64,000 nucleotides of DNA, taken from assembly GCA_016930085.1 (NCBI GenBank), contig JAFGHO010000069.1, positions 62,001-126,000 on the forward strand, in the 5' to 3' direction. The notes beneath the pieces are model-generated. The model did not search any database. It saw only the letters and a list, made by a program, of their open reading frames with translations, and was not told where the DNA came from. The position numbers were made by a program, and so were the translations under genes. This document shows, piece after piece, positions 2,284 through 14,087 of the stretch; within the stretch, counting starts at the first letter, position 1; the number at the start of each line of letters is the position of its first letter. Source of the DNA: Spirochaetales bacterium. Its GTDB lineage: Bacteria > Spirochaetota > Spirochaetia > SZUA-6 > JAFGRV01.

Positions 2284-4146
2284 ATGGATACAACGGAAGG
2301 CAAAAAAAGGCTTTTCATCTACATTATCTTTCTCTCGCTTCTCATTATTCCCCTTCTGATACGTCTTGGGTCCATCATGCTTTTCCCTTCGGAAAGGTTG
2401 CATACGGATCCGGCAACACAACCTGCAATCGAACGGGGACCGATTCTCGACAGGAATGGTAAAATTCTGGCGATACAGACAAAACTGAAATCGGTATCCG
2501 CCTGGATACCCTATCTCGATAACACTGAAGAAACCGCCCGCATTCTCGCGGATGTACTCGGAATGAGTGAAAAGCACATTCTCAACCTCCTCACCGGCAC
2601 GACGAGGAAATATGTTTTCATCAAACGAAAGGTCACCCCCACCGAATCGGAAAAGATAGCTGAAATCAAATCACAAGGAAAACTGCGTGGTATCAACCTT
2701 GATGAAGAGTTCGCACGCAGTTATCCGCAATCCAGACTCGCATGCCACATTATCGGATACGTCGATATCGACAATAACGGACTCGACGGTGTCGAACTCG
2801 CATTTGACGAAGAACTTTCCCCAAAAATGTCCGATAGCGGAATCGATATCGTGTATGGAAACCAGCTTTTTCTTACCGTCGATATCAATATACAGTTTCT
2901 GGTCACGCAAATTGCGCGCGAAGTGTACGCCGAAAACGATGCGGATGCCGTCATGATCCTTGTCATGAACGCAAAAACGGGTGAAATTCTCAGTTCGGTA
3001 TCGATTCCGGATTTTAATCCGAACGATTTCACACGATATTCCGATGCGGAAAGGACAAACAGGCCCCTCTTCGCTTCCTATGAACCCGGTTCCGTTTTCA
3101 AGATTTTCACCATATCATCGCTTCTTGAGGCGGGTGCGATCACGACCGTCGAAGAGTTTACCTGTAACGGGGTTTATGAGGGGGCGGGAGAACCGATCAA
3201 CTGTCTCGGTATTCACGGCCGTATCACCGCGGCGGGTATCATCAAATACTCCTGTAATGTCGGCGCCGCTTTTGCATCCGAACATATCGGCGAACGCCGC
3301 TTTCACGATCAACTCAAACGCTTCGGATTCGGCGATAAAACGGGGATATCCCTGCCGGGCGAGACAACGGGAATTTTTCATGATGTCGAAGATTGGTCGG
3401 GGCGGTCAAAACCGGCCATCGCATTCGGACAGGAAATTTCCGTTTCGGCGATTCAAATGGCCGCGGCGGCGACCGCACTGACCAATGACGGCACCATACT
3501 CAAACCCCTGATCGTTAAAAAAATAGTATCCCCTGAAGGAAAGCTGATAAAAGAATACAATCGCGAACCCGTCCGGACAGCGGTCTCCCCTGCGACCGCA
3601 CGAACCATGCTCGCCATGATGGAAGAAGCGACCGCGGGGAACGGTACCGCGCGCGGCGCCCGCGTTGAAGGTGTGCGTATCGCGGCAAAAACAGGAACCG
3701 CAGAAGCATACGATCCCGTCTCACATTCGATCTCAACAACGCATTTTATCCCCTCGATACTCGGTATTTTTCCTGCGGACGATCCGCAGTGTATCGTATA
3801 CATCGTTATCGACCATCCCAAAGGGGAACATTATTTCGGAAGCAGGATTGCCGCGCCCGTACTGAAAAAGATTATCGAACAGATTATCCCTGTCCTCAAC
3901 CTCCCCACGGACGACAATACGATTGTAAGGCATTCGGGTAATGTTGAACTCAGCGTGCCGCCCATCATTGAGATCGGCTCCCTGATGCCCGATCTGACGG
4001 GAACGCCGAAGCGGCTTCTTCTTTCACTATACAGTAACTCCCGTATTACCCTGCATATCCGGGGTGAAGGCTATGTCGTAAAACAGAACCCGCCCCCCGG
4101 CACGCCCGTCGGTCCTGACACGACGATTATTCTGGAGCTCGAATGA
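2284..4146 (+). CDS. ftsI: Class B penicillin-binding protein with C-terminal PASTA domain
   Basis: The 620-residue product has one N-terminal membrane segment (about 9-29), a pedestal domain, a transpeptidase domain and a single PASTA repeat (about 555-620). The active-site motifs are intact: SVFK (S270), SCN (S323) and KTG (469-471). It crosslinks peptidoglycan, most likely with the FtsW encoded elsewhere in this window. The PASTA tail resembles SpoVD/Pbp2X-type enzymes. The division cluster at 44042-52853 contains no ftsI, so this is the best candidate for the missing septal transpeptidase; an elongation or specialised role cannot be excluded. Its stop overlaps the next start by four bases, suggesting translational coupling. 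Confidence 0.88.
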   Translation: MDTTEGKKRLFIYIIFLSLLIIPLLIRLGSIMLFPSERLHTDPATQPAIERGPILDRNGKILAIQTKLKSVSAWIPYLDNTEETARILADVLGMSEKHILNLLTGTTRKYVFIKRKVTPTESEKIAEIKSQGKLRGINLDEEFARSYPQSRLACHIIGYVDIDNNGLDGVELAFDEELSPKMSDSGIDIVYGNQLFLTVDINIQFLVTQIAREVYAENDADAVMILVMNAKTGEILSSVSIPDFNPNDFTRYSDAERTNRPLFASYEPGSVFKIFTISSLLEAGAITTVEEFTCNGVYEGAGEPINCLGIHGRITAAGIIKYSCNVGAAFASEHIGERRFHDQLKRFGFGDKTGISLPGETTGIFHDVEDWSGRSKPAIAFGQEISVSAIQMAAAATALTNDGTILKPLIVKKIVSPEGKLIKEYNREPVRTAVSPATARTMLAMMEEATAGNGTARGARVEGVRIAAKTGTAEAYDPVSHSISTTHFIPSILGIFPADDPQCIVYIVIDHPKGEHYFGSRIAAPVLKKIIEQIIPVLNLPTDDNTIVRHSGNVELSVPPIIEIGSLMPDLTGTPKRLLLSLYSNSRITLHIRGEGYVVKQNPPPGTPVGPDTTIILELE

Positions 4147-5978
4147 GTCTGCTTGAAACAAATCTCGGATACATCGACGGCTTCCATCCGTCACTCAAAC
4201 ATGTCGCTAAGGGTGTTTCCGCATCGGGGATCGAGATCCTCTCAACACCATCGGGAAATCCCACTATGCGGTATAAAGGCCTGTATATCCATAGTTCCCA
4301 TAACCCGGTGAAGGAAGCTTCACAACTCGCCGAACGTGCAACCGCTTCTCCCGGCATCTCCTGCTGTATCATTTACGGTTTCGGCCTGGCTTACCACATC
4401 GAGGCTTTTCTTGAAAAGCGTCCTGAAACGCCTGTGTTGATTGTCGAACCCGATATATCCGTCTTCCTCAAGGCCCTGGAAACAAGAAACCTCCGCCCCG
4501 TCCTTGCCTCCCGCCGGGTGAGCATCTGCCTCGGCCCGATACCAGGCGATATTCTCCCTTACCTTGAAAGACTACCCCTTTCCGAAATCCAGATGATAAA
4601 ACTCAGATCGCGCTACACACAAGAACGGGAGTATTTTCTCCGGATTGACGGCCTGATCGGCTCTGTGGTTTCGGCAAAAGAAATCAATCTGAATACATTG
4701 AAACGTTTCGGCAAGTTGTGGGTAAAAAACCTTGTAAAAAACATCCATTACCTTATCGGGATGCCGGGTATCTCCCTTCTGAAAGGACGCATGACCGGTA
4801 TTCCCGCTTTGGTCCTTGCTTCCGGCCCATCCCTGGACAATGTGATGCCCCACCTTTACGAATTGAGCAGGCGTATGCTCGTTATCGCGGTCGATACATC
4901 CCTGCGCGCATGCATCGAATGCGGTATCGAACCCGATTTTCTCGTCATCGTCGACCCGCAATACTGGAATACCCGTCATATTGACTGGCTCGACCCGCAA
5001 AAAACCATCCTCGTCTCGGAGTCATCGACGCATCCCAGAATTTTCACGCTTCTTCGATGCAAAGGCTTTCTGGCAAGTTCCTTTTTCCCGCTCGGAAGAT
5101 TTTTTGAATCGATAGTCGGCCACAAGGGGGTAATCGGTGCGGGCGGTTCGGTCGCGACCGCCGCCTGGGACCTCGCGAGGGGGTTCGGCGCCTGTCCCAT
5201 TGCTATGGCCGGACTTGACCTCGGTTATCCCCGGAAACAGACGCACTTTCGAGGAGCTTTTTTCGAACAGCGTTTTCATATGCTCGCTTTCAGGTTTCTA
5301 AACGGGGAAACAATGTCGTTCCGGTATCTGCGGGAAGCGTCTCCCTTTCCGGAAACCGCGAATGACGGACAATACACCCTTACGGACAGGAGAATGTTCA
5401 TTTACAAACGGTGGTTCGAATCACAGATGGCGATCTACCCGGAGACCGAAACACTTAATCTTTCACCGAAAGGAATTCGGATTGAAGGGATGAACACATC
5501 GACAGTCGGGAAGCTTCTCGATTTGCCCGTTATCCGCGAAAACCTGGATAAACGCCTTGAGGAAATCCGCGCCATCACAACCCGCTCCCCCCTGGAACAG
5601 GAAACCGGACGGATCGAATTAAAACAATCGATCGAATCTTTGTGTGAAGACCTCGGCAGACTCCGATCCGTCGCCGCCGAGGGCATCTCCATCACCCGGA
5701 AAGCTTCCGCGGGAATCAGGGCCAACATGCTCCCACGGGAATCGATTGAAGCCCTGAACAGGATCGACAGGTTGATTTGCTCGGAATCATCACGAATCAT
5801 TGCCGGTTTTCTTCTTCAACCGGTGATTCAGGGAATTCTCCACGCTTCGGAAAACACCGGCCGCTCGGACGCGCGAGAGGTCCTTGCCGTCTCGGAAGAC
5901 CTCTACCGGCAGCTATCGGATTCGGCCCGATATCACCATATGATTCTCTCACGCGCCCTGGATTCGCTTACGAAGTAA
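4143..5978 (+). CDS. DUF115 / MptE-like protein (motility accessory factor type)
   Basis: The 611-residue cytoplasmic protein carries the DUF115 core beginning near residue 219 with ALVLASGPSLD, typical of the 6-hydroxymethylpterin-pyrophosphokinase-like/Maf family. An N-terminal region contains YGFGLAYHIE and VEPD, and a helical tail follows. Maf proteins add nonulosonic acids to flagellins in several bacteria, but the family is broad and no sugar-biosynthesis genes are visible here. The ATG overlaps the stop of the penicillin-binding protein gene (ATGA), so the two are translationally coupled. A role in glycosylating flagellar or surface components is a family-based inference. Confidence 0.75.
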   Translation: MSLLETNLGYIDGFHPSLKHVAKGVSASGIEILSTPSGNPTMRYKGLYIHSSHNPVKEASQLAERATASPGISCCIIYGFGLAYHIEAFLEKRPETPVLIVEPDISVFLKALETRNLRPVLASRRVSICLGPIPGDILPYLERLPLSEIQMIKLRSRYTQEREYFLRIDGLIGSVVSAKEINLNTLKRFGKLWVKNLVKNIHYLIGMPGISLLKGRMTGIPALVLASGPSLDNVMPHLYELSRRMLVIAVDTSLRACIECGIEPDFLVIVDPQYWNTRHIDWLDPQKTILVSESSTHPRIFTLLRCKGFLASSFFPLGRFFESIVGHKGVIGAGGSVATAAWDLARGFGACPIAMAGLDLGYPRKQTHFRGAFFEQRFHMLAFRFLNGETMSFRYLREASPFPETANDGQYTLTDRRMFIYKRWFESQMAIYPETETLNLSPKGIRIEGMNTSTVGKLLDLPVIRENLDKRLEEIRAITTRSPLEQETGRIELKQSIESLCEDLGRLRSVAAEGISITRKASAGIRANMLPRESIEALNRIDRLICSESSRIIAGFLLQPVIQGILHASENTGRSDAREVLAVSEDLYRQLSDSARYHHMILSRALDSLTK

Positions 5979-6155: not shown

Positions 6156-6785
6156 TCATTTATTTTTGAAATAGAGTTTGACCGCTTCCCGGCGCAACGT
6201 TTGAGAAGTGTCTTCCATGGCCATGATAATCAGGCGGAAAAGTATTTTTTTATAACCAAGCGCGTTGATCGTTGTGAGGATTTCCTGCTTTACTTCCGCG
6301 CCTGTTCTGAGAAAAAGTGCGGACAATTCATGGACGGACTGATGTATACGCAGCTTCCGTACGGCAGCCACCACTTCCGTGACCACCCGCTCGTCTTGAT
6401 CACGGAGTGCCTTTCTCAAAAAAACCCAGGCGCTTTTTTTCCCCGATTCCCCGATCCTCCTTGCAGCATTGATTTTGACATCCGGATGCGTGTTCGAAAC
6501 CAAAAGCCTCCCGAAGCCGAAAAGCCGATCGAATGCCCCGGGCTTGTGAGTAACGCCGCCGCCAAAGGAGTTCCCCGTAAACGGAGACCTTGTTTTCGAC
6601 GTACCGATGCGCGACAGGATCGTTTTATATGCATCGACAACCGTCGTGAACATGAGCGGCGACCCCGTGCTTTGCGCGCTGTCCGGATGAAATCGTTTCA
6701 CCATGCGTCTGTATGCCGATTTCACTTCTCCGAGTGTCGCGTCGGGATATAGATCGAGGACCTTAAAAAGATGGTAATCGTTCAC
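6156..6785 (-). CDS. J-domain protein with HEAT-like C-terminal repeats
   Basis: The 209-residue product begins with a J domain (about 1-60) including the HPD tripeptide at 33-35 that stimulates Hsp70 ATPases. A glycine-containing linker follows, then about 110 residues of short helical repeats of HEAT type (phrases such as INAARRIGESG and VTEVVAAVRKL). It lacks the zinc-finger and client domains of DnaJ, so it is a specialised J protein. The start directly abuts the stop of the upstream gene, which encodes an isolated Hsp70 substrate-binding domain; the pairing suggests that they act together. It is the last gene of the fliA-fapA operon, which hints at a role in motility or envelope assembly. 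Confidence 0.85.
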   Translation of the reverse strand: MNDYHLFKVLDLYPDATLGEVKSAYRRMVKRFHPDSAQSTGSPLMFTTVVDAYKTILSRIGTSKTRSPFTGNSFGGGVTHKPGAFDRLFGFGRLLVSNTHPDVKINAARRIGESGKKSAWVFLRKALRDQDERVVTEVVAAVRKLRIHQSVHELSALFLRTGAEVKQEILTTINALGYKKILFRLIIMAMEDTSQTLRREAVKLYFKNK

Positions 6786-7403
6786 TCACTCATTCCTTTC
6801 CCCCTCGAGGCGCGAACTGACTTCTCCGATCAAGGTTCCCAGTATGGTATGCATGGCGGCCAGTTCATGATAAGATCCGTTTGTCCTTGCGTAAAACGCT
6901 TTTTTTAATGCACTTTCGATTTCCTCATACAGAAGCGGATCGGATGTGCCGGTCATCGTTCCTTTCAGCCGCGTCAACTCCGTAATGAGTTGTGTCAACC
7001 GCTTTCTCAATGTTATTTTACCATAAATGATCCCGTTTGTACAGTGAAAAGATTGTTCGTCGAACATACAGACAACCTGGGAAAGAGAGGTCTTTCCTGC
7101 GCAATCGGTAAGGGTGACGCGAAGAAGGCCGTCCGTTCCCGCCGTGACTGTGATGCGAATTCTGCTTTTATATTTGGGCAGCTGCTTCAAGCCGGAAAGG
7201 AGAAGCCGGCAGAGTGTTTCGTGCGTTTCATCGTCAGACCGGCGGACCAGATGAATTTCTGCGGATTGCTGAAAGTCGGAAATCGTGGTTACTATCGTGC
7301 TTTTTCGCGCCGGAAGCGCCGTACCCTTTTTAAGCAGCGGAACAAACACGCCGTTTTCGATTTCACAGTCGATTGAAAAAGGAAGGATCTCTTCCAGTTT
7401 CAC
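6786..7403 (-). CDS. Free-standing Hsp70 substrate-binding domain protein
   Basis: This 205-residue protein aligns by eye with the C-terminal half of DnaK and has no ATPase domain. LPFSIDCEIENGVFVPL corresponds to the TPLSLGIET.GGV start of the DnaK beta-sandwich. KGTALPARKST, SAEIHLV and DGLLRVTLTD match successive strands, and the last 90 residues are helical like the lid. The GTG start at 7403 is preceded by AGGATAGG and lies four bases after the previous stop. A longer frame from 7451 would overlap that gene by 44 bases. Binding of unfolded clients, perhaps with the neighbouring J-domain protein, is inferred from homology and position. Confidence 0.75.
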   Translation of the reverse strand: MKLEEILPFSIDCEIENGVFVPLLKKGTALPARKSTIVTTISDFQQSAEIHLVRRSDDETHETLCRLLLSGLKQLPKYKSRIRITVTAGTDGLLRVTLTDCAGKTSLSQVVCMFDEQSFHCTNGIIYGKITLRKRLTQLITELTRLKGTMTGTSDPLLYEEIESALKKAFYARTNGSYHELAAMHTILGTLIGEVSSRLEGERNE

Positions 7404-7407
7404 AATC

Positions 7408-7878
7408 CTATCCTTTTCTCTCTTCCAAAGAAATAATAAGCTCGATCTCACCGACCGGCAGATTAATCCGGCCGGCGATCAGTGCGGGAGAAAACCCCTG
7501 GTAATAGAGTTTCAACACCCGCTCACGGATACTCACGTCGCTCTCTTTCCTGTTTTGCGCTTCACCCTGCTGTTGCGTCTTTTTAATGATATCGCTGTAA
7601 TTTTTACTCATGCTGTATTTCTCACTTTCACGCTGCAGCATGAGGATCTTTTTATCGGCTTTTTCCAGAAGCGCAGAAAGCTCCCGTACGCGTTGTTCAA
7701 TGAGGGTGATATTCCGCTCTGTTATATTGTTGAGTTCGGCCATTATTTTGTTGACTTCGGAATGGATGTTATCGATCAGCTTTTGCGGATTGACGAGTTT
7801 TTTTATTGTTCGTTTCAAAAACAGATACACGATAAAAAATCCCGCCGCGAAAAGGCCTGTTATGAGAATGTATTCCAT
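7408..7878 (-). CDS. SwrB-like membrane-anchored HTH protein (DUF6115/DUF2802 type)
   Basis: The 156-residue product has an N-terminal membrane helix (EYILITGLFAAGFFIVYLF), a basic stretch, a central coiled coil and a C-terminal helix-turn-helix-like motif (ERVLKLYYQGFSPALIAGRI, then PVGEIELIISL). This architecture, and its place just downstream of fliA and fapA, match Bacillus SwrB, which follows sigD in the fla/che operon and promotes flagellar basal-body maturation, and proteobacterial DUF2802 proteins. The name is an inference from architecture and synteny. The ATG at 7878 lies 16 bases after the upstream stop; a TTG at 7902 is an alternative. Confidence 0.6.
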   Translation of the reverse strand: MEYILITGLFAAGFFIVYLFLKRTIKKLVNPQKLIDNIHSEVNKIMAELNNITERNITLIEQRVRELSALLEKADKKILMLQRESEKYSMSKNYSDIIKKTQQQGEAQNRKESDVSIRERVLKLYYQGFSPALIAGRINLPVGEIELIISLEERKG

Positions 7879-7894
7879 AATGACTCGTAGCTTT

Positions 7895-8221
7895 CTATCC
7901 AATAATATCGATATGATGACCCAGATGAGATTCTCTAAACATTTTCCTCTGCTCCTTTTTCAACGCTTCCTTTTCTTTCTCTCTTTTCCTGTTCCGATTC
8001 CTGTTTTCTTTCCTGTTCTCTTCTTCATTCACTTTTTCAACACCGTCTCCGATATCATGGGTTTCATTGACGGTCGCATCTTTATCGATCGTTTCTTTTG
8101 CTATTTCGGATCCCTGGAGTGATTGATGGAGCGGTGAAACATCCTTTTGAATCGCCTGCTCCTTGCCGACCTGATTCAGATGGGAAAACATGGTCTGTAA
8201 ATCAATCGGAAGTAACGGCAT
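7895..8221 (-). CDS. Small charged protein of unknown function
   Basis: The 108-residue product is hydrophilic, with a helical N-terminus (LPIDLQTMFSHLNQVGKEQA) and a very basic, asparagine- and glutamate-rich segment (about 65-93), and no membrane segment or cysteine. The ATG follows the fapA stop by only three bases, so it is surely cotranscribed. I do not recognise a named family; its fixed place between fapA and the SwrB-like gene suggests a motility-related role. Confidence 0.6.
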   Translation of the reverse strand: MPLLPIDLQTMFSHLNQVGKEQAIQKDVSPLHQSLQGSEIAKETIDKDATVNETHDIGDGVEKVNEEENRKENRNRNRKREKEKEALKKEQRKMFRESHLGHHIDIIG

Positions 8222-8224
8222 CGT

Positions 8225-10165
8225 CTAGATGATTCTCCTTTTAAACTCCTCTTCTACCGCTTCATAGCGGGTGACGCGTATATTATTGTGCTCCAATATA
8301 AATGTAACAAATTTAAACTCGTTTTTCACCTCCAGATAGGCATCCCGTATATATAATTTAACACCGGGAAACACCCTCTCGGAAGCCGATACCTTCCCCT
8401 CTTTTCTGAGTGCGACCAGATGTGACTTGATTTCATCGATATCACCGTTGACCCGTTCGAGTTCGGAGGTAATATTGTTTCTTTTTTCACTTAATTCGGA
8501 AAGATACGCCTCCTTCTCCTCAGAAAGTTTTCGCTGGACTTTTTTGAGATTCATGAGGGTTTTTATGTTCAATTCAAGCTCTTCGAGTTCCTTATCCAGA
8601 TCCGTTTTCTTTTTATCGAGAACGGCCAGTTTCTCCTTGCTCGACGGATCATAGCCGACTTCCAGAATCGTTTCCGTACCGGCGATCGAGCCGAGATTTT
8701 TGGCATTGATTTCTTCCGATGCCCTGAGTTTTCCGCCGACGATCGACGCCCGTCTTCCGGAACAGATTATTTTTCTGTTCGCGTCGACCGAGCTGTGGAG
8801 AATTCCCTCATTCACGACGACAAACTCCACAGCCTCCACGTGGGCGTGCTCGATGAACTTTGAGAAGACACTTTTACCGCTTCTCACACGCCCGCCGTTC
8901 TTCCCCAGGATACCCTGGTGAACGATAATATCGCCTTCCGCATCGAGGTTGCATTTGCCGACGTTCCCCTTGATTTCGATATTCCCCGCCGCTTTTATCG
9001 AAAAACCGTCGAGGACGCTTCCTTTGACGATAACGGTCCCCAGAAACAGAATGTTGCCTGTCTGGAGATTGACATCGCCGCTTACCATATAAATCGGCTC
9101 GACGTTTATTTTTCCACCGATCAGCATCACCTGGCCGTTGATCTCCGATATCGCGGTCATCCCGTCTTCCGATAATTTCACGTTCTTCCCGATCTGTATA
9201 TCGACGTCGTTCCCCGATTTCGCGGGAATCGTCTTGCCGGTAACGGTTCGTCCCTCTACTCCTTTTTCAGGCGGTATTTTTTTTGCGAGTACCTGGCCCG
9301 CTACCACATTTTCAATCAGATTGAGTTCCTTGAAATCGATCCTTCCCGCTTCTTCCTTGAGGGTGATGTGGCCCCGTTCGACATTAAAATGATAGGCGAT
9401 CTGCGCGTCCTTTCCGTTGACCGGTTTCGTACCTTCTGCCGCGACGAGCCTCATATTATATTGCGGATAATCTTCGAATTTCCGAATTTCGTCATGTAGA
9501 ATGCCGTAGACGACACCATTGTTTTTGAGAATGGCCACGATACTGTCATACGTCAGATCGGCGCCGCCCAGACGGGGGGCCGTGACTTCCATGACCGCTT
9601 TCATTTCCATCTCTATAATATCGACGGACATTGAGGCGTCATGGACGGGATTATAATCGAACTCGCCGATACGGATGTATTTCTCCTCGGCCCTCTTGAC
9701 GACACGCGAAATAATACCGACATCGTATCGCGTCACACCGCGTTGATGTATTCGCTCGAGTGCGTGTTTTTCCGTCGCCACCTTGCCTTTTCCCCTGGGC
9801 TTTGTCACTTTCAAAAATACACCGTCATGGGTAAGTCGAACGAAAACATCACCGTCCCTGTCTTCCATCACCGGAATATCCGCGCCGATTTCCTTTTTAC
9901 CTGTTTCTATGAAATCGGGCATCATGACTTTTTCAGCGGATTCGTAGACGATAAGTTCCCACTGCTTTTTCCCGACGCCCCACACGCCTTTGGTTCCCCG
10001 GTTCAATATTTCATAATTAAGTTTATTTATCGGTACTCCCAGTTCGACTGAAGCTGATCTGAGGGCCTCCTCGAGGGAGTTCCCGCGTACTTCGATGGAT
10101 TTTACCTCCCGGTCTTTCTCCAACTGCTGATTCATGTATTCCCGAAGCTGGGAAAAATTGATCAT
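8225..10165 (-). CDS. fapA: FapA-family protein (DUF342) with N-terminal Jag-N domain
   Basis: The 646-residue product starts with a Jag-N type domain (about 20-75, including the signature KGVWGVGKK). The DUF342/FapA region follows, with a right-handed beta-helix of repeated short strands (about 290-490), a long coiled coil (about 505-590) and a C-terminal cap. FapA was described in Vibrio as a flagellar assembly protein linked to polar localisation and to glucose signalling. In many motile bacteria it sits next to fliA, as here. It lacks a membrane segment. The 13-base spacing from fliA suggests cotranscription. Confidence 0.85.
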   Translation of the reverse strand: MINFSQLREYMNQQLEKDREVKSIEVRGNSLEEALRSASVELGVPINKLNYEILNRGTKGVWGVGKKQWELIVYESAEKVMMPDFIETGKKEIGADIPVMEDRDGDVFVRLTHDGVFLKVTKPRGKGKVATEKHALERIHQRGVTRYDVGIISRVVKRAEEKYIRIGEFDYNPVHDASMSVDIIEMEMKAVMEVTAPRLGGADLTYDSIVAILKNNGVVYGILHDEIRKFEDYPQYNMRLVAAEGTKPVNGKDAQIAYHFNVERGHITLKEEAGRIDFKELNLIENVVAGQVLAKKIPPEKGVEGRTVTGKTIPAKSGNDVDIQIGKNVKLSEDGMTAISEINGQVMLIGGKINVEPIYMVSGDVNLQTGNILFLGTVIVKGSVLDGFSIKAAGNIEIKGNVGKCNLDAEGDIIVHQGILGKNGGRVRSGKSVFSKFIEHAHVEAVEFVVVNEGILHSSVDANRKIICSGRRASIVGGKLRASEEINAKNLGSIAGTETILEVGYDPSSKEKLAVLDKKKTDLDKELEELELNIKTLMNLKKVQRKLSEEKEAYLSELSEKRNNITSELERVNGDIDEIKSHLVALRKEGKVSASERVFPGVKLYIRDAYLEVKNEFKFVTFILEHNNIRVTRYEAVEEEFKRRII

Positions 10166-10178
10166 ATGAGTCGTGCTC

Positions 10179-10964
10179 CTATACGATACCCTTCTTTATA
10201 CTCGTGAGTTTGGTTCGCAATCTCATGATCGCTTTGGTGTGAAGTTGAGAAATTCGTGACTCCGTCACACCCAGCACCTCGCCGATTTCTTTCAGGGTAA
10301 GGTCTTCATAATAATAGAGTACAAGGACCTTTTTTTCTTTTTCGGGCAACTCATTAATCGCTTCGATAATAACCCGCTTGATTTCTTCCTTTTCGACAAT
10401 AGTGTCGGGATTGAGATTTGAAGGCGATTCGATACTGTCCACAATCGATATTTTGTCGTTATCGTCCCCCGTATTCCACACATCATTCAGAGAGAGGATC
10501 GATGTACCGCTGATTTTCAAAATCAACTGCTGAAAATCACCGGCATCCATATTCATCGCCCGTGCGATCTCTTCGTCCGTGGCAACGCGTCCCAGCTGTG
10601 ACTCGAGCATGCGCACCGTTTCTTCCACTTCCCTGCTTTTCTGGCGTATCGATCGCGGAACCCAGTCGATTGCCCGTAACTCGTCGAAAATAGCGCCCCG
10701 AATACGCGTGACGGCATAGGTCTTGAATTTGACATGTTTATCGGGATCGAACTTGTCGATTGCGTCAAACAATCCAAAGACTCCGAATCCGACCAGATCG
10801 TCGAATTCGACGTTTGTCGGCATTCCGATCGCTATTTTTCCTGCAACATATTTCACGAGAGGGGCATATTGCTTTATAAAAATATCCCGTATCTGCGGGT
10901 CTTTTTTATTTTTATAAAGCCGCCAGAGTTCTTCTTCAGATTTACCTTCCAAAGGATCTGCCAT
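10179..10964 (-). CDS. fliA: RNA polymerase sigma factor FliA/WhiG (sigma28)
   Basis: The 261-residue sigma70-family protein has region 2 ([19 protein letters not shown], then [12 protein letters not shown]), region 3 and a region 4 helix-turn-helix ([20 protein letters not shown]). It would direct core polymerase to late flagellar genes such as flagellins, none of which lie in this window. The ATG at 10964 is preceded by GGAAGG. A TTG at 10994 would place the start over the preceding stop and lacks a good ribosome site. No flgM anti-sigma gene is adjacent. Confidence 0.93.
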
Positions 10965-10990
10965 AATATTTACATCCTTCCTTTTTTCTT

Positions 10991-11785
10991 TCAATCCCTG
11001 TCCCTCTCAATCCAGGTATGAATGGCTTTTGCGGTTTTTGACGGATCCTGAACAAGTTCGGAAACTTTCGGATCGATCCTGGTCCGGCCGAAAGGATTCC
11101 TCACTTCAAATGATTCCGTCCCTGCATCCGATTCGTCTCCCACATGGGAAAAACTGCTTGAAAATGAATCGATCTCCGGCAATTCATCGAGATCGTCTTT
11201 TTCCATTGGTTCTTCCGTTATCGACCGTACGTCTTCATCATCGATATCTTCAATATCCATGGTCTCGTCCGTTGAATCAAGAGACCGTATACCCTCTGCC
11301 GTCTTTTTCGGTTTTTCCGCTATATCCCCTTCATCCGGTGCGGATTCAAAGACGCTTTCCTCATCAACCTCGCCGCTTTTGGTATCAGCCGAACCGTTTT
11401 GGGCATACGTCGTATCGCCTTCTTCTTCCAGTTCCAAAACGGTTTCGATTCCTTCCGCATCCGAATCAACATCCGCGGTATCATCATCCAAAGAATTATT
11501 CCTTTTCCGCTCTCCTTTCGCATGAGGGTTTTCCTCGGGAATTATCGCTTCAAACTCGCTTTCTTCGGATTTACCGTATTGTTCACCGCCTGTCATTTCC
11601 AGAAGTTCGGGCAGATATTTATTCAAAACGAGATTGAGGACGACCCCCAACCCGGCAAAAACAATCGACCATATGATAGCGCGTAACATGATCTCGAAGA
11701 ACGGAACACCCCCGACACCTCCGGATAGAATCGCTAAAACTGCTGCAAACACTGCAAAAACTGCGACAATTTTCCAGTTTATCAT
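10991..11785 (-). CDS. Acidic membrane-anchored protein of unknown function between flhG and fliA
   Basis: The 264-residue product has two N-terminal membrane helices (about 5-24 and 32-52), a long acidic low-complexity region rich in Asp, Glu and Ser (about 70-225), and a short C-terminal conserved-looking patch ([18 protein letters not shown], then an IHTWIERD end). The acidic part is likely disordered in the cytoplasm. The gene opens the operon with fliA and sits right behind a strong promoter (11803-11831). The patch resembles a docking peptide, but I know no function; a link to FliA or FapA is only positional. Confidence 0.65.
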
Positions 11786-12037: not shown

Positions 12038-12898
12038 TCACTTGACAAAAAGCTTTTTCAAAAATCCCCCTATCCCGCTTCCCTCCTTGTACTCGATATT
12101 CTCGAGTCTGCCGACCATGTGTTTGATACATATCGAGGCCTTGCTTTTTGCGTCCGCAAGGAGAAAAGGTTTTTGTTTGACGACACAGTTGTGGACAAGA
12201 ACATCATCATAGACAAAACCGAGATAATCGATTTTCAGATTGAGGAACTGGCCTGCAATGTTGATGACCCGTTCTGCCACTCTTCTCCCTTCCGTTACCG
12301 TCTTCACCTTGTTGACCACGAGTTTGAGACCGATATTGATGTTATCGATTTCTGTCGCGATTATTTTGATAATTCCGTACGCATCGGTGATCGCGGTTGG
12401 TTCCGGAGTCGTCACGATAATCGCATCGTCGGATGCGGCAATAAAGGAAAGGACATTATTCGAAACACCCGCCCCGGTATCGATAATGAGAACGTCTGCA
12501 TTCGAAAGTTCACTCAGTTCGACGATAATGTTCTTTCGTTCATCATCCGAAAGATTCGCGATTTTGGAAAAACCGGATGCACCGGCGACAATCTTGATTC
12601 CGTATCCCGTATCCTGAATAATCTCCTTCATTTTTTTCTGTTTTCTGATAAGGTGATACAGATTGTACCGGGGGATAATGCCAAGCACGACATTGACGTT
12701 TGCTAGCCCCAGATCGGCATCCATGACGACGACTTTTTTGCCGAGTTGTGCGTACGCGAGGGCGATATTAATGGCAATATTGGTCTTTCCGACCCCCCCT
12801 TTCCCGCTTGAAATTGATATAATGCGGGTATTCCGCCTCAATGAATCCGGATTGTTATTCCGCATTATTTCCCTTAATTTTTGTGCCTGATCTCCCAT
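12038..12898 (-). CDS. flhG: FlhG (YlxH), MinD-like ATPase controlling flagellar number
   Basis: The 286-residue ParA/MinD-family protein has the deviant Walker A SGKGGVGKTN near residue 35 and the following VVVMDADLGLANVN. It contains the IDTGAGV Walker B region and an N-terminal segment like the FlhF-activating helix of FlhG. It works with FlhF to set flagellar number and place. The ATG at 12898 follows GGAG by eight bases and lies four bases after the flhF stop; an upstream in-frame candidate at 12943 overlaps flhF and is less likely. Confidence 0.9.
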   Translation of the reverse strand: MGDQAQKLREIMRNNNPDSLRRNTRIISISSGKGGVGKTNIAINIALAYAQLGKKVVVMDADLGLANVNVVLGIIPRYNLYHLIRKQKKMKEIIQDTGYGIKIVAGASGFSKIANLSDDERKNIIVELSELSNADVLIIDTGAGVSNNVLSFIAASDDAIIVTTPEPTAITDAYGIIKIIATEIDNINIGLKLVVNKVKTVTEGRRVAERVINIAGQFLNLKIDYLGFVYDDVLVHNCVVKQKPFLLADAKSKASICIKHMVGRLENIEYKEGSGIGGFLKKLFVK

Positions 12899-12902
12899 CT
12901 TG

Positions 12903-14087
12903 TTATCTCCAATTGTTAATATAGCATTCATCCTGTTTACCAAATACCTTTTCTATAAAATCTCGGTCTATTCTCAATCCCTCGAGTTTCATGAGAAACC
13001 GCATCACCGTTGCCTCCTCGATATCCTGGGGGACAACCTGTCCGTCGGTGATATAGGAAACCGGTTTGCTCTTTTCCGCGAGCACACTCATTATATTACC
13101 GATCCTGTTTGTCTCATCCAGCTTTGTCAGAATTACCGACTTATACATAAACGGCTCGAATTGCCTCAAGATATCTTCCACATCCGAGGCCTTCGTCGTC
13201 GCGCTTACCGCCAGATGAGTTTCGCTGTAGGTGCCGCATGCGTCGAGAATTCTCTTCATCTCCCCCAGTTTTTCGTAATCCGCGGGGCTCTTGCCGATCG
13301 TGTCGATTAAAATCAGATCGACATCCTGATAAAGGGCAATCGCCTTTTGCAACTCATTATAAGTTTCGGCAAAGCTGACGGGAATCTGCATGATCTCTGC
13401 ATAGGTTTCTATCTGCTTTTTTGCCGCAATCCGGTAATTATCGATCGTAATCATCCTCACCTGGGATACCGGCTGCTTTTTATTGCCCAATCCGTAGATC
13501 GCGGCAAGTTTGGCGATCGTCGTCGTTTTCCCCACTCCCGTCGGACCGACAACTATATATATAATCGGCTTTTTTTTGCTGAACCGAAAGGGCGGATAAA
13601 TCAATATTTGTTCTCCTATCCGCCGGAGGACGCTCTGCCTCAAGGCGGCCGTATCGTTCAGGGCTTCGATCGAAAACTCCTTCTCCAGTGATCCGATAAT
13701 TTTTCGGATAAAAGAAGGGGTGAAATCGTTCAATTCAAGTATTTCTCTTACCTGATCCAGCGCGGGATTGGAAACGGCCGTATTATCCCTACCGCCCGAA
13801 AGTTGTACCTTGATCTGCTTGATTTCCCTGAGTATTTTTGCCATTGTCTGTTCCTTGTTTACGGCATCGAGAATTTTTTTCTTCTCGTCCTCATCTGCGT
13901 ATCGGCGTGGCGCAGGCGCATCCGATAAATAACCGGTTATCTCGATTCCCTCTTTTATAAAAAGCCCCATAAATCCACCGGTTCGCACGACACGATGGGT
14001 GAGGAGACGTGCCTTGTCGCCGTATTGCCGTTTCATGGCATCAATCGCGTCCTTCAGTGTGTGAGCCTGTAATGTAAAATACTGCAT
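12903..14087 (-). CDS. flhF: FlhF, SRP-type GTPase for flagellar placement
   Basis: The 394-residue product has the basic N-terminal B region (starting QYFTLQAHTLKDAIDAMK), a helical N domain and a C-terminal SRP GTPase G domain. The G1 motif is [10 protein letters not shown] (about residue 180), and DTIGKS (G3) and TKLDE (G4) follow. FlhF marks the site of basal-body assembly; spirochaetes insert flagella subterminally and depend on it. The flhF-flhG pair is tightly spaced. Confidence 0.93.
   Translation of the reverse strand: MQYFTLQAHTLKDAIDAMKRQYGDKARLLTHRVVRTGGFMGLFIKEGIEITGYLSDAPAPRRYADEDEKKKILDAVNKEQTMAKILREIKQIKVQLSGGRDNTAVSNPALDQVREILELNDFTPSFIRKIIGSLEKEFSIEALNDTAALRQSVLRRIGEQILIYPPFRFSKKKPIIYIVVGPTGVGKTTTIAKLAAIYGLGNKKQPVSQVRMITIDNYRIAAKKQIETYAEIMQIPVSFAETYNELQKAIALYQDVDLILIDTIGKSPADYEKLGEMKRILDACGTYSETHLAVSATTKASDVEDILRQFEPFMYKSVILTKLDETNRIGNIMSVLAEKSKPVSYITDGQVVPQDIEEATVMRFLMKLEGLRIDRDFIEKVFGKQDECYINNWR

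Follow-up and report, generated by a model that had tools for sequence, protein, structure and literature searches.

At the end of a spirochaetal flagellar operon, within a 64,000-nucleotide stretch of a Spirochaetales genome (the whole stretch analysed, hereafter the window), the substrate-binding domain (SBD) of an Hsp70 is encoded without an ATPase domain (NBD) and directly before a J-domain protein with HEAT repeats. Hsp70 function is usually thought to need ATPase and client binding coupled in one chain, and J-domain proteins are the usual activators of the Hsp70 ATPase. Judged by comparison with other Spirochaetia, the module derives by reduction from a cassette that is widespread and includes a complete Hsp70, a relationship missed by the initial annotation of this DNA. 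We rate the parent cassette as already of a known kind and the NBD-less variant as new.

The SBD-only protein is a 205-residue open reading frame with a GTG start (positions 6786-7403, minus strand), and its first residues are VKLEEILPFSIDCEIENG. It matches the Pfam HSP70 profile with 37.9 bits (E 8.7e-10, cut-off 20.6), residues 1-103 corresponding only to profile positions 384-488 of 599, and the NCBIfam prok_dnaK model only at positions 384-484 of 596. A phmmer search of the PDB returned DnaK and Hsp70 SBD constructs (best E 1e-9). An AlphaFold2 model built on a 37-sequence alignment (mean pLDDT 89.9) has an eight-stranded sandwich followed by helices at residues 124-149, 156-175 and 178-204, and a Foldseek comparison of this model with the PDB placed DnaK structures at the top, mostly isolated SBDs, with E-values down to 3e-14. 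The corresponding TM-scores are about 0.5 with a large rmsd, which in our reading may reflect a lid modelled in a different orientation. Profile, residues, model and Foldseek agree on an SBDbeta fold with a peptide cleft, the beta-sandwich spanning residues 5-112 (7068-7391, minus strand) and keeping the peptide-loop residues T427, T428, D431, Q433, E437 and I472 (E. coli numbering). The short helical lid, residues 124-204 (6792-7034, minus strand), drew no match from sequence models and is assigned from its alignment to the lids of full-length relatives and from the high-confidence helices of the model. The hydrophobic interdomain linker ending in D393 is not preserved, the protein having VKLEE where VLLLD is expected. 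The initial annotation had proposed a beta-sandwich and lid without ATPase and had pointed to structure prediction as a check, and both the profile match to the SBD part and the confident model bear it out.

The loss of the ATPase domain in the window is a clean deletion and not a frameshift, because only 4 bp separate the stop codon of the upstream gene from the SBD start, leaving no room for an NBD remnant. The start itself is preceded by a Shine-Dalgarno-like AAGGA. An N-terminal actin-like NBD with K70, E171 and T199 is absent from both the SBD gene and the upstream gap; recent loss of a neighbouring ATPase half by frameshift, an event for which the initial annotation had allowed, left no remnant, and the NBD is cleanly missing. 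A scan of the 5.36-Mb assembly with the HSP70 profile found no free NBD elsewhere. Its other matches were the housekeeping DnaK, MreB, a divergent 604-residue Hsp70-like protein and two SBDbeta-only proteins. Two candidates for a relocated free NBD were set aside: one of 344 residues is MreB, and the other, the 604-residue protein, is a further Hsp70-like protein in which actin-like motifs are combined with an unusual C-terminal half (L002, 93-1907, minus strand, on contig C14 of the same genome). The housekeeping DnaK is complete and has the J-contact residues R167, N170 and T173.

The SBD stop codon (TGA, 6786-6788) directly adjoins the GTG start of the second gene (6156-6785, minus strand), which encodes a 209-residue J-domain/HEAT protein. 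Its J domain lies at residues 6-56 (E 1.6e-9) and carries basic helix II and the HPD tripeptide (AYRRMVKRFHPD), the latter at residues 33-35 (6681-6689, minus strand); coordinates and domain match thus agree with the initial report of an SBD stop abutting the start of a J-domain protein with intact HPD. The HEAT-repeat part occupies residues 82-208 (6162-6542, minus strand; HEAT_2 E 4.8e-8, and the model), and the model of the whole protein (pLDDT 89.8) has three J helices, a flexible linker at residues 65-80 and then eight HEAT-type helices. The HPD motif is invariant across the J domains of the family, having been kept in every one aligned, including those next to deleted, dead or absent ATPases.

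The pair closes an operon of the order flhF-flhG-flgV-fliA-fapA-small protein-TM/HTH-SBD-J/HEAT, and its placement in the fliA operon is as earlier described. All of these genes lie on the minus strand. Immediately upstream of the SBD gene is a protein with a TM segment, a coiled coil and an HTH (7408-7902; DUF6115/DUF2802-like in Pfam), which precedes the Hsp70/J genes in nearly all cassettes and corresponds by position and architecture to the 'TM + HTH' gene of an earlier study (PMC11607428). Next come a small conserved protein at the 'YjfB' position of that study (7895-8221; 34% identity to its equivalent in L169, and no significant Pfam match), the flagellar assembly protein FapA (8225-10165; Pfam FapA E 1.6e-73), a FliA-type sigma factor with Pfam sigma70 regions 2, 3 and 4 (10179-10994), a FlgV-like protein (10991-11785; 39% identity over 59 residues with the gene that L167 has at the flgV position, E 1e-12), and FlhG (12038-12943) and FlhF (12903-14087), both 51-52% identical to their L167 orthologues. 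On the other flank, a MptE/Maf-like protein, possibly of the flagellin glycosyltransferase type, is transcribed toward the end of the flagellar operon (4143-5978, plus strand). From operon position only, we infer flagellar or envelope clients for the pair.

The same operon end recurs across the class. When 395 Spirochaetia genomes were searched with an alignment of J/HEAT proteins and the loci were scanned with home-built profiles, a cassette of TM/HTH, Hsp70 and J/HEAT genes proved to be conserved across Spirochaetia at the end of the fliA-fapA-small protein-TM/HTH operon, its Hsp70 being full length (~560-600 residues) with the J/HEAT gene next to it. One such locus (L008/L097) has TM/HTH, a 568-residue Hsp70 and a 219-residue J/HEAT protein, and the gene order is repeated in L012/L098, L013/L099 and L011/L100; about 50 more relatives have a complete Hsp70 at this place. 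In the window's own order, genome G018 retains the full-length Hsp70 gene, and at another locus (L009/L096) a 586-residue Hsp70 is followed by a CheW-like gene in place of J/HEAT. The catalytic residues K70, E171, T199, N170, P143 and R151 are intact in all 51 full-length members, each of which has the complete catalytic NBD that the window protein lacks. Apparent Hsp70-J fusions of 773-790 residues in G358, G362 and G109 turned out to be merely overlapping open frames. J/HEAT proteins are rare outside the class, with one weaker match (90 bits), in another class, among 296 genomes sampled from the phylum. The initial annotation had raised conservation of the pair in other spirochaetes, and a J/HEAT gene does accompany an Hsp70 at the same locus, but that Hsp70 is mostly complete and not SBD-only.

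A related arrangement is found in a genome with a 917-kb chromosome (G043), which we class as Borreliaceae-type by its size and gene content and where the order is M23-lepB-Hsp70 (505 residues)-TM/HTH-small protein-fapA-flgV-flhG-flhF. In Borrelia, flgV is bb0268, flhG bb0269 and flhF bb0270, and the flgB superoperon bb0294-bb0264 ends at bb0264 (PMC11607428); this numbering, set against the gene order, puts the G043 Hsp70 at the bb0264 position. Unlike the window, the G043 locus lacks a J/HEAT gene, and the C-terminus of its Hsp70 is short. The product of bb0264 is annotated as a DnaK paralogue. Like the flagellar-locus Hsp70s, the window protein is encoded next after TM/HTH in the fapA operon, in the company of the small protein, fapA and flgV, and it has the same type of SBD, whereas their copies have a complete NBD. 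An SBD profile of the flagellar-locus family scores its members at 180 bits or more (the window protein at 180) and housekeeping DnaKs at 169 or less; with the window sequence itself in the profile, this gap supports family membership without being independent evidence of it. Because the same locus holds a complete Hsp70 across Spirochaetia and at the bb0264 position, the window protein is, on comparative grounds, an NBD-less descendant of the flagellar-locus Hsp70, and by the same comparison its ancestor did have the ATPase half.

An SBD without an NBD occurs in four genomes of the window's order: the window genome, G003, G005 and G015. The window genome and G003 belong to different genera of one family, and both have the SBD and J/HEAT genes; their SBDs are ~31% identical, so the NBD-less state recurs in a second genus. 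In G005 and G015 (family f2) only SBD and HEAT are present, the J domain having been lost together with the NBD, as is seen in the HEAT-only versions of the J/HEAT gene (L093, 3963-4382, plus strand; L094, 2193-2927, minus strand). What looks like a TM/HTH-SBD fusion in G015 extends across a run of N, and we do not rely on it. Elsewhere, in genus g22 of family f11, G090 has its catalytic set intact, and G030 and G055 have shortened NBDs in which K70 is gone, E171 is replaced by Q and the GGG motif is broken, so that these two NBDs are predicted to be dead. Their broken NBDs (L106, 2174-3640, and L107, 2171-3682, both minus strand) sit beside an almost unchanged J domain, and with a third species of the genus (L103), whose copy is intact, they make up a series from intact to pseudo-ATPase within one genus. 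G074, from another f11 genus, has only a degenerate SBD-like frame. In G042 there is no Hsp70 next to the J/HEAT gene, which keeps its HPD, and the genome has one DnaK-type match. Both genes are missing beside TM/HTH in G001, G002 and G004, three of the five genomes of the window's family, and the cassette is absent in most of its order. In a tree of SBDs, read without support values, the window protein and G003 fall together and the f2 sequences lie elsewhere on long branches; we do not use it to decide whether the order lost the NBD once or twice. Since NBD-less genomes occur in the window's order and dead or degenerate copies in family f11, the NBD was lost or killed at least twice, independently.

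The residues that face the peptide and those that face the NBD have fared differently in the four SBD-only sequences, compared here with the 51 full-length ones in E. coli numbering. All four share T427, T428, D431, Q433, E437, G461, I472 and P419 with the full-length family; position 427 is S and 437 is T in E. coli, against T and E in the flagellar-locus family. Documented interdomain contacts pair Q442 with D148, D393 with N170/T173 and N415 with T221, and N415G is an allostery mutant (PMC4664246; PMC8215388). Q442, which is Q in 47 of the 51 full-length proteins, is R, K, R and R in the SBD-only set (0/4 kept); D393 is E, N or missing (0/2 kept); and N415 is kept once in four, with G in the other three. 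The SBDbeta positions 474 and 476 are altered as well, and the NBD-facing D481 and K414 are still present in the window protein. A hand tally of conserved columns gave 1/10 kept at NBD-docking positions vs 67/105 at the rest, a figure that, with few and non-independent sequences, is descriptive only. The pattern, a peptide-binding loop kept and NBD-docking residues lost, is strong but not total.

Rates of change were gauged against the identity expected from pairs with equal TM/HTH identity. Between the window and G003, the SBD is 31% identical (expected 40 +/- 5), the J domain 23% (41 +/- 7) and the HEAT part 33% (34 +/- 9), the low SBD and J values pointing to relaxed or changed constraint. 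Between G030 and G055, the figures are 38% for the NBD (76 +/- 10), 55% for the SBD (72 +/- 12), 92% for the J domain (74 +/- 12) and 67% for HEAT (64 +/- 17). A J domain can, on these values, stay tightly constrained where the ATPase in cis is dead, a constraint best accounted for by a partner in trans, the housekeeping DnaK. The persistence of SBD and HEAT without J in f2 suggests, for its part, that SBD and HEAT form the core association.

The explanation that we favour, at about an even chance of being correct, makes the module an adaptor that binds clients and passes them to the housekeeping DnaK via its J protein, resembling yeast Ssz1/Zuo1. As the comparison shows, a complete Hsp70 at the fliA-fapA operon end had its ATPase domain cleanly deleted, with the peptide-binding domain, lid and J/HEAT partner retained. 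The SBD would then act as a nucleotide-independent peptide binder, capturing a hydrophobic segment of a client or of a fixed partner; the translationally linked J/HEAT protein would grip it through HEAT, and the intact J domain would recruit and fire the housekeeping DnaK, which would perform the ATP-driven work in trans. The survival of HPD in G042 without a neighbouring Hsp70, and beside the dead NBDs of G030 and G055, speaks for this adaptor. Against it, J activity is not required for retention of SBD and HEAT in G005 and G015, which keep both after losing J; the SBD and J domain of the window and G003 have diverged beyond the TM/HTH-based expectation, and both genes are missing in G001, G002 and G004; and D481 and K414 are retained though they face the NBD. 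The same f2 genomes would suit an ATP-independent holdase or scaffold, in which SBD and HEAT stably hold a partner from the flagellum or the membrane (possibly the TM/HTH protein), DnaK takes no part and J is a dispensable leftover. The HEAT identity of the window-G003 pair, at its expected value with J below it, fits such a scaffold, as does the passive use of ATPase-less SBDbeta domains fused to TM and LysM in spirochaetes. Yet the J domains of the window and G003 keep HPD and basic helix II at only 23% identity, and where the cis NBD is dead in G030/G055 the J domain is 92% conserved, which leaves the scaffold somewhat unlikely. The initial annotation had offered a holdase or a borrowed DnaK ATPase, both plausible; with HPD invariant the comparison favours J-mediated work with DnaK in the lineages that retain the J domain.

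Decay would read the same comparisons in another way, with the NBD as one of the pieces shed while a dispensable cassette is lost step by step, the remaining proteins having little or no function. The cassette's absence from three of five same-family genomes and most of the order, the faster evolution of SBD and J after NBD loss, and the strongly degenerate G074 copy would all be expected of a relic. We nevertheless consider a relic unlikely: open frames, start signals, translational coupling, pocket residues and HPD are kept in two genera whose SBDs are ~31% identical, a distance at which unconstrained frames would contain stops, the HEAT rate is normal and the folded models are confident. 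The most improbable reading by far is an assembly artefact in which ~1.1 kb of NBD sequence dropped out of the contig. The draft genome does consist of 135 contigs, but the NBD-less state is found independently in G003 and the two f2 genomes, the start codon lies cleanly 4 bp past the upstream stop with its Shine-Dalgarno-like signal, and the NBD-docking residues of the SBD are altered in parallel.

Among known systems, the adaptor would most resemble the yeast RAC, in which Ssz1, itself incapable of the Hsp70 cycle, contacts nascent chains through its SBD, and Zuo1 completes this SBD in addition to acting as J partner of Ssb (PMC7083937). A J protein is thus joined to a degenerate Hsp70 that contacts clients, with the J domain serving another Hsp70 (PMC7083937). 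Ssz1, however, keeps an ATP-binding NBD and has no lid, whereas the window protein has no NBD, and Zuo1 has ribosome-binding domains. The likeness would be one of analogy and not of membership; the observations on a putative heterodimer here are gene coupling and co-retention. HscC with DjlB/DjlC is similar in that a bacterial Hsp70 with a specialised role has its own J proteins encoded nearby, but HscC has an NBD, and HEAT repeats are not described for DjlB/DjlC in the same source (PMC8215388). DnaK and DnaJ share with the window pair the SBD fold, the peptide-loop motif with D431 and Q433, and an HPD J domain; the window protein differs in having neither NBD nor conserved hydrophobic linker, and its J partner in having HEAT repeats where DnaJ has G/F, zinc and CTD domains.

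Spirochaetes also contain a commoner Hsp70 SBDbeta without NBD, in SBDbeta-TM-LysM proteins that differ from the window protein in being membrane anchored and encoded at another locus, and in their wide distribution: clearly more than half of the 61 Spirochaetia genomes sampled gave strong matches. The window genome has one (L005, 1429-2370, plus strand, contig C117), in which an acidic linker and a single TM helix connect an N-terminal SBDbeta to a C-terminal LysM domain; it has a 'STVRDNQ' peptide loop, scores 33.6 bits against Pfam HSP70 and has no ATPase. Relatives are found at L170-L181, L183 and L182 (653-1936, minus strand), and a LysM-less version lies near the flagellar Hsp70 locus of a Borreliaceae-type genome. 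Such proteins would apparently tether a cytoplasmic client-binding domain to peptidoglycan. The window genome further encodes a related protein (L006, 1423-2649, plus strand, contig C63) whose N-terminus resembles SBDbeta and which also has a TM helix and, at its C-terminus, an OmpA domain; when the whole genome was scanned with the HSP70 profile it scored 18 bits, short of the cut-off. The commoner SBDbeta-TM-LysM proteins indicate that the use of an ATPase-free SBD is not limited to the flagellar locus.

Our searches of the open-access literature brought up no naturally occurring Hsp70 family that lacks the NBD, with or without a J partner, nor any account of clients of the spirochaete flagellar-operon Hsp70/J pair. 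A bolder proposal, which we offer tentatively as possible and short of probable, is that of a bacterial RAC-like module, in which a client-binding-only Hsp70 is permanently joined to a J protein with a HEAT scaffold, obtains the ATPase of housekeeping DnaK through it, serves flagellar or envelope assembly and has arisen at least twice by ATPase loss; if true, it would be a natural division of the Hsp70 cycle into two halves carried by different proteins. With the ATPase deleted or killed at least twice and the SBD and J partner kept, independent use of an SBD becomes testable, as does the coupling by a J protein of an SBD to another Hsp70, and the spirochaete flagellar operon is brought to notice as the home of an Hsp70/J pair.
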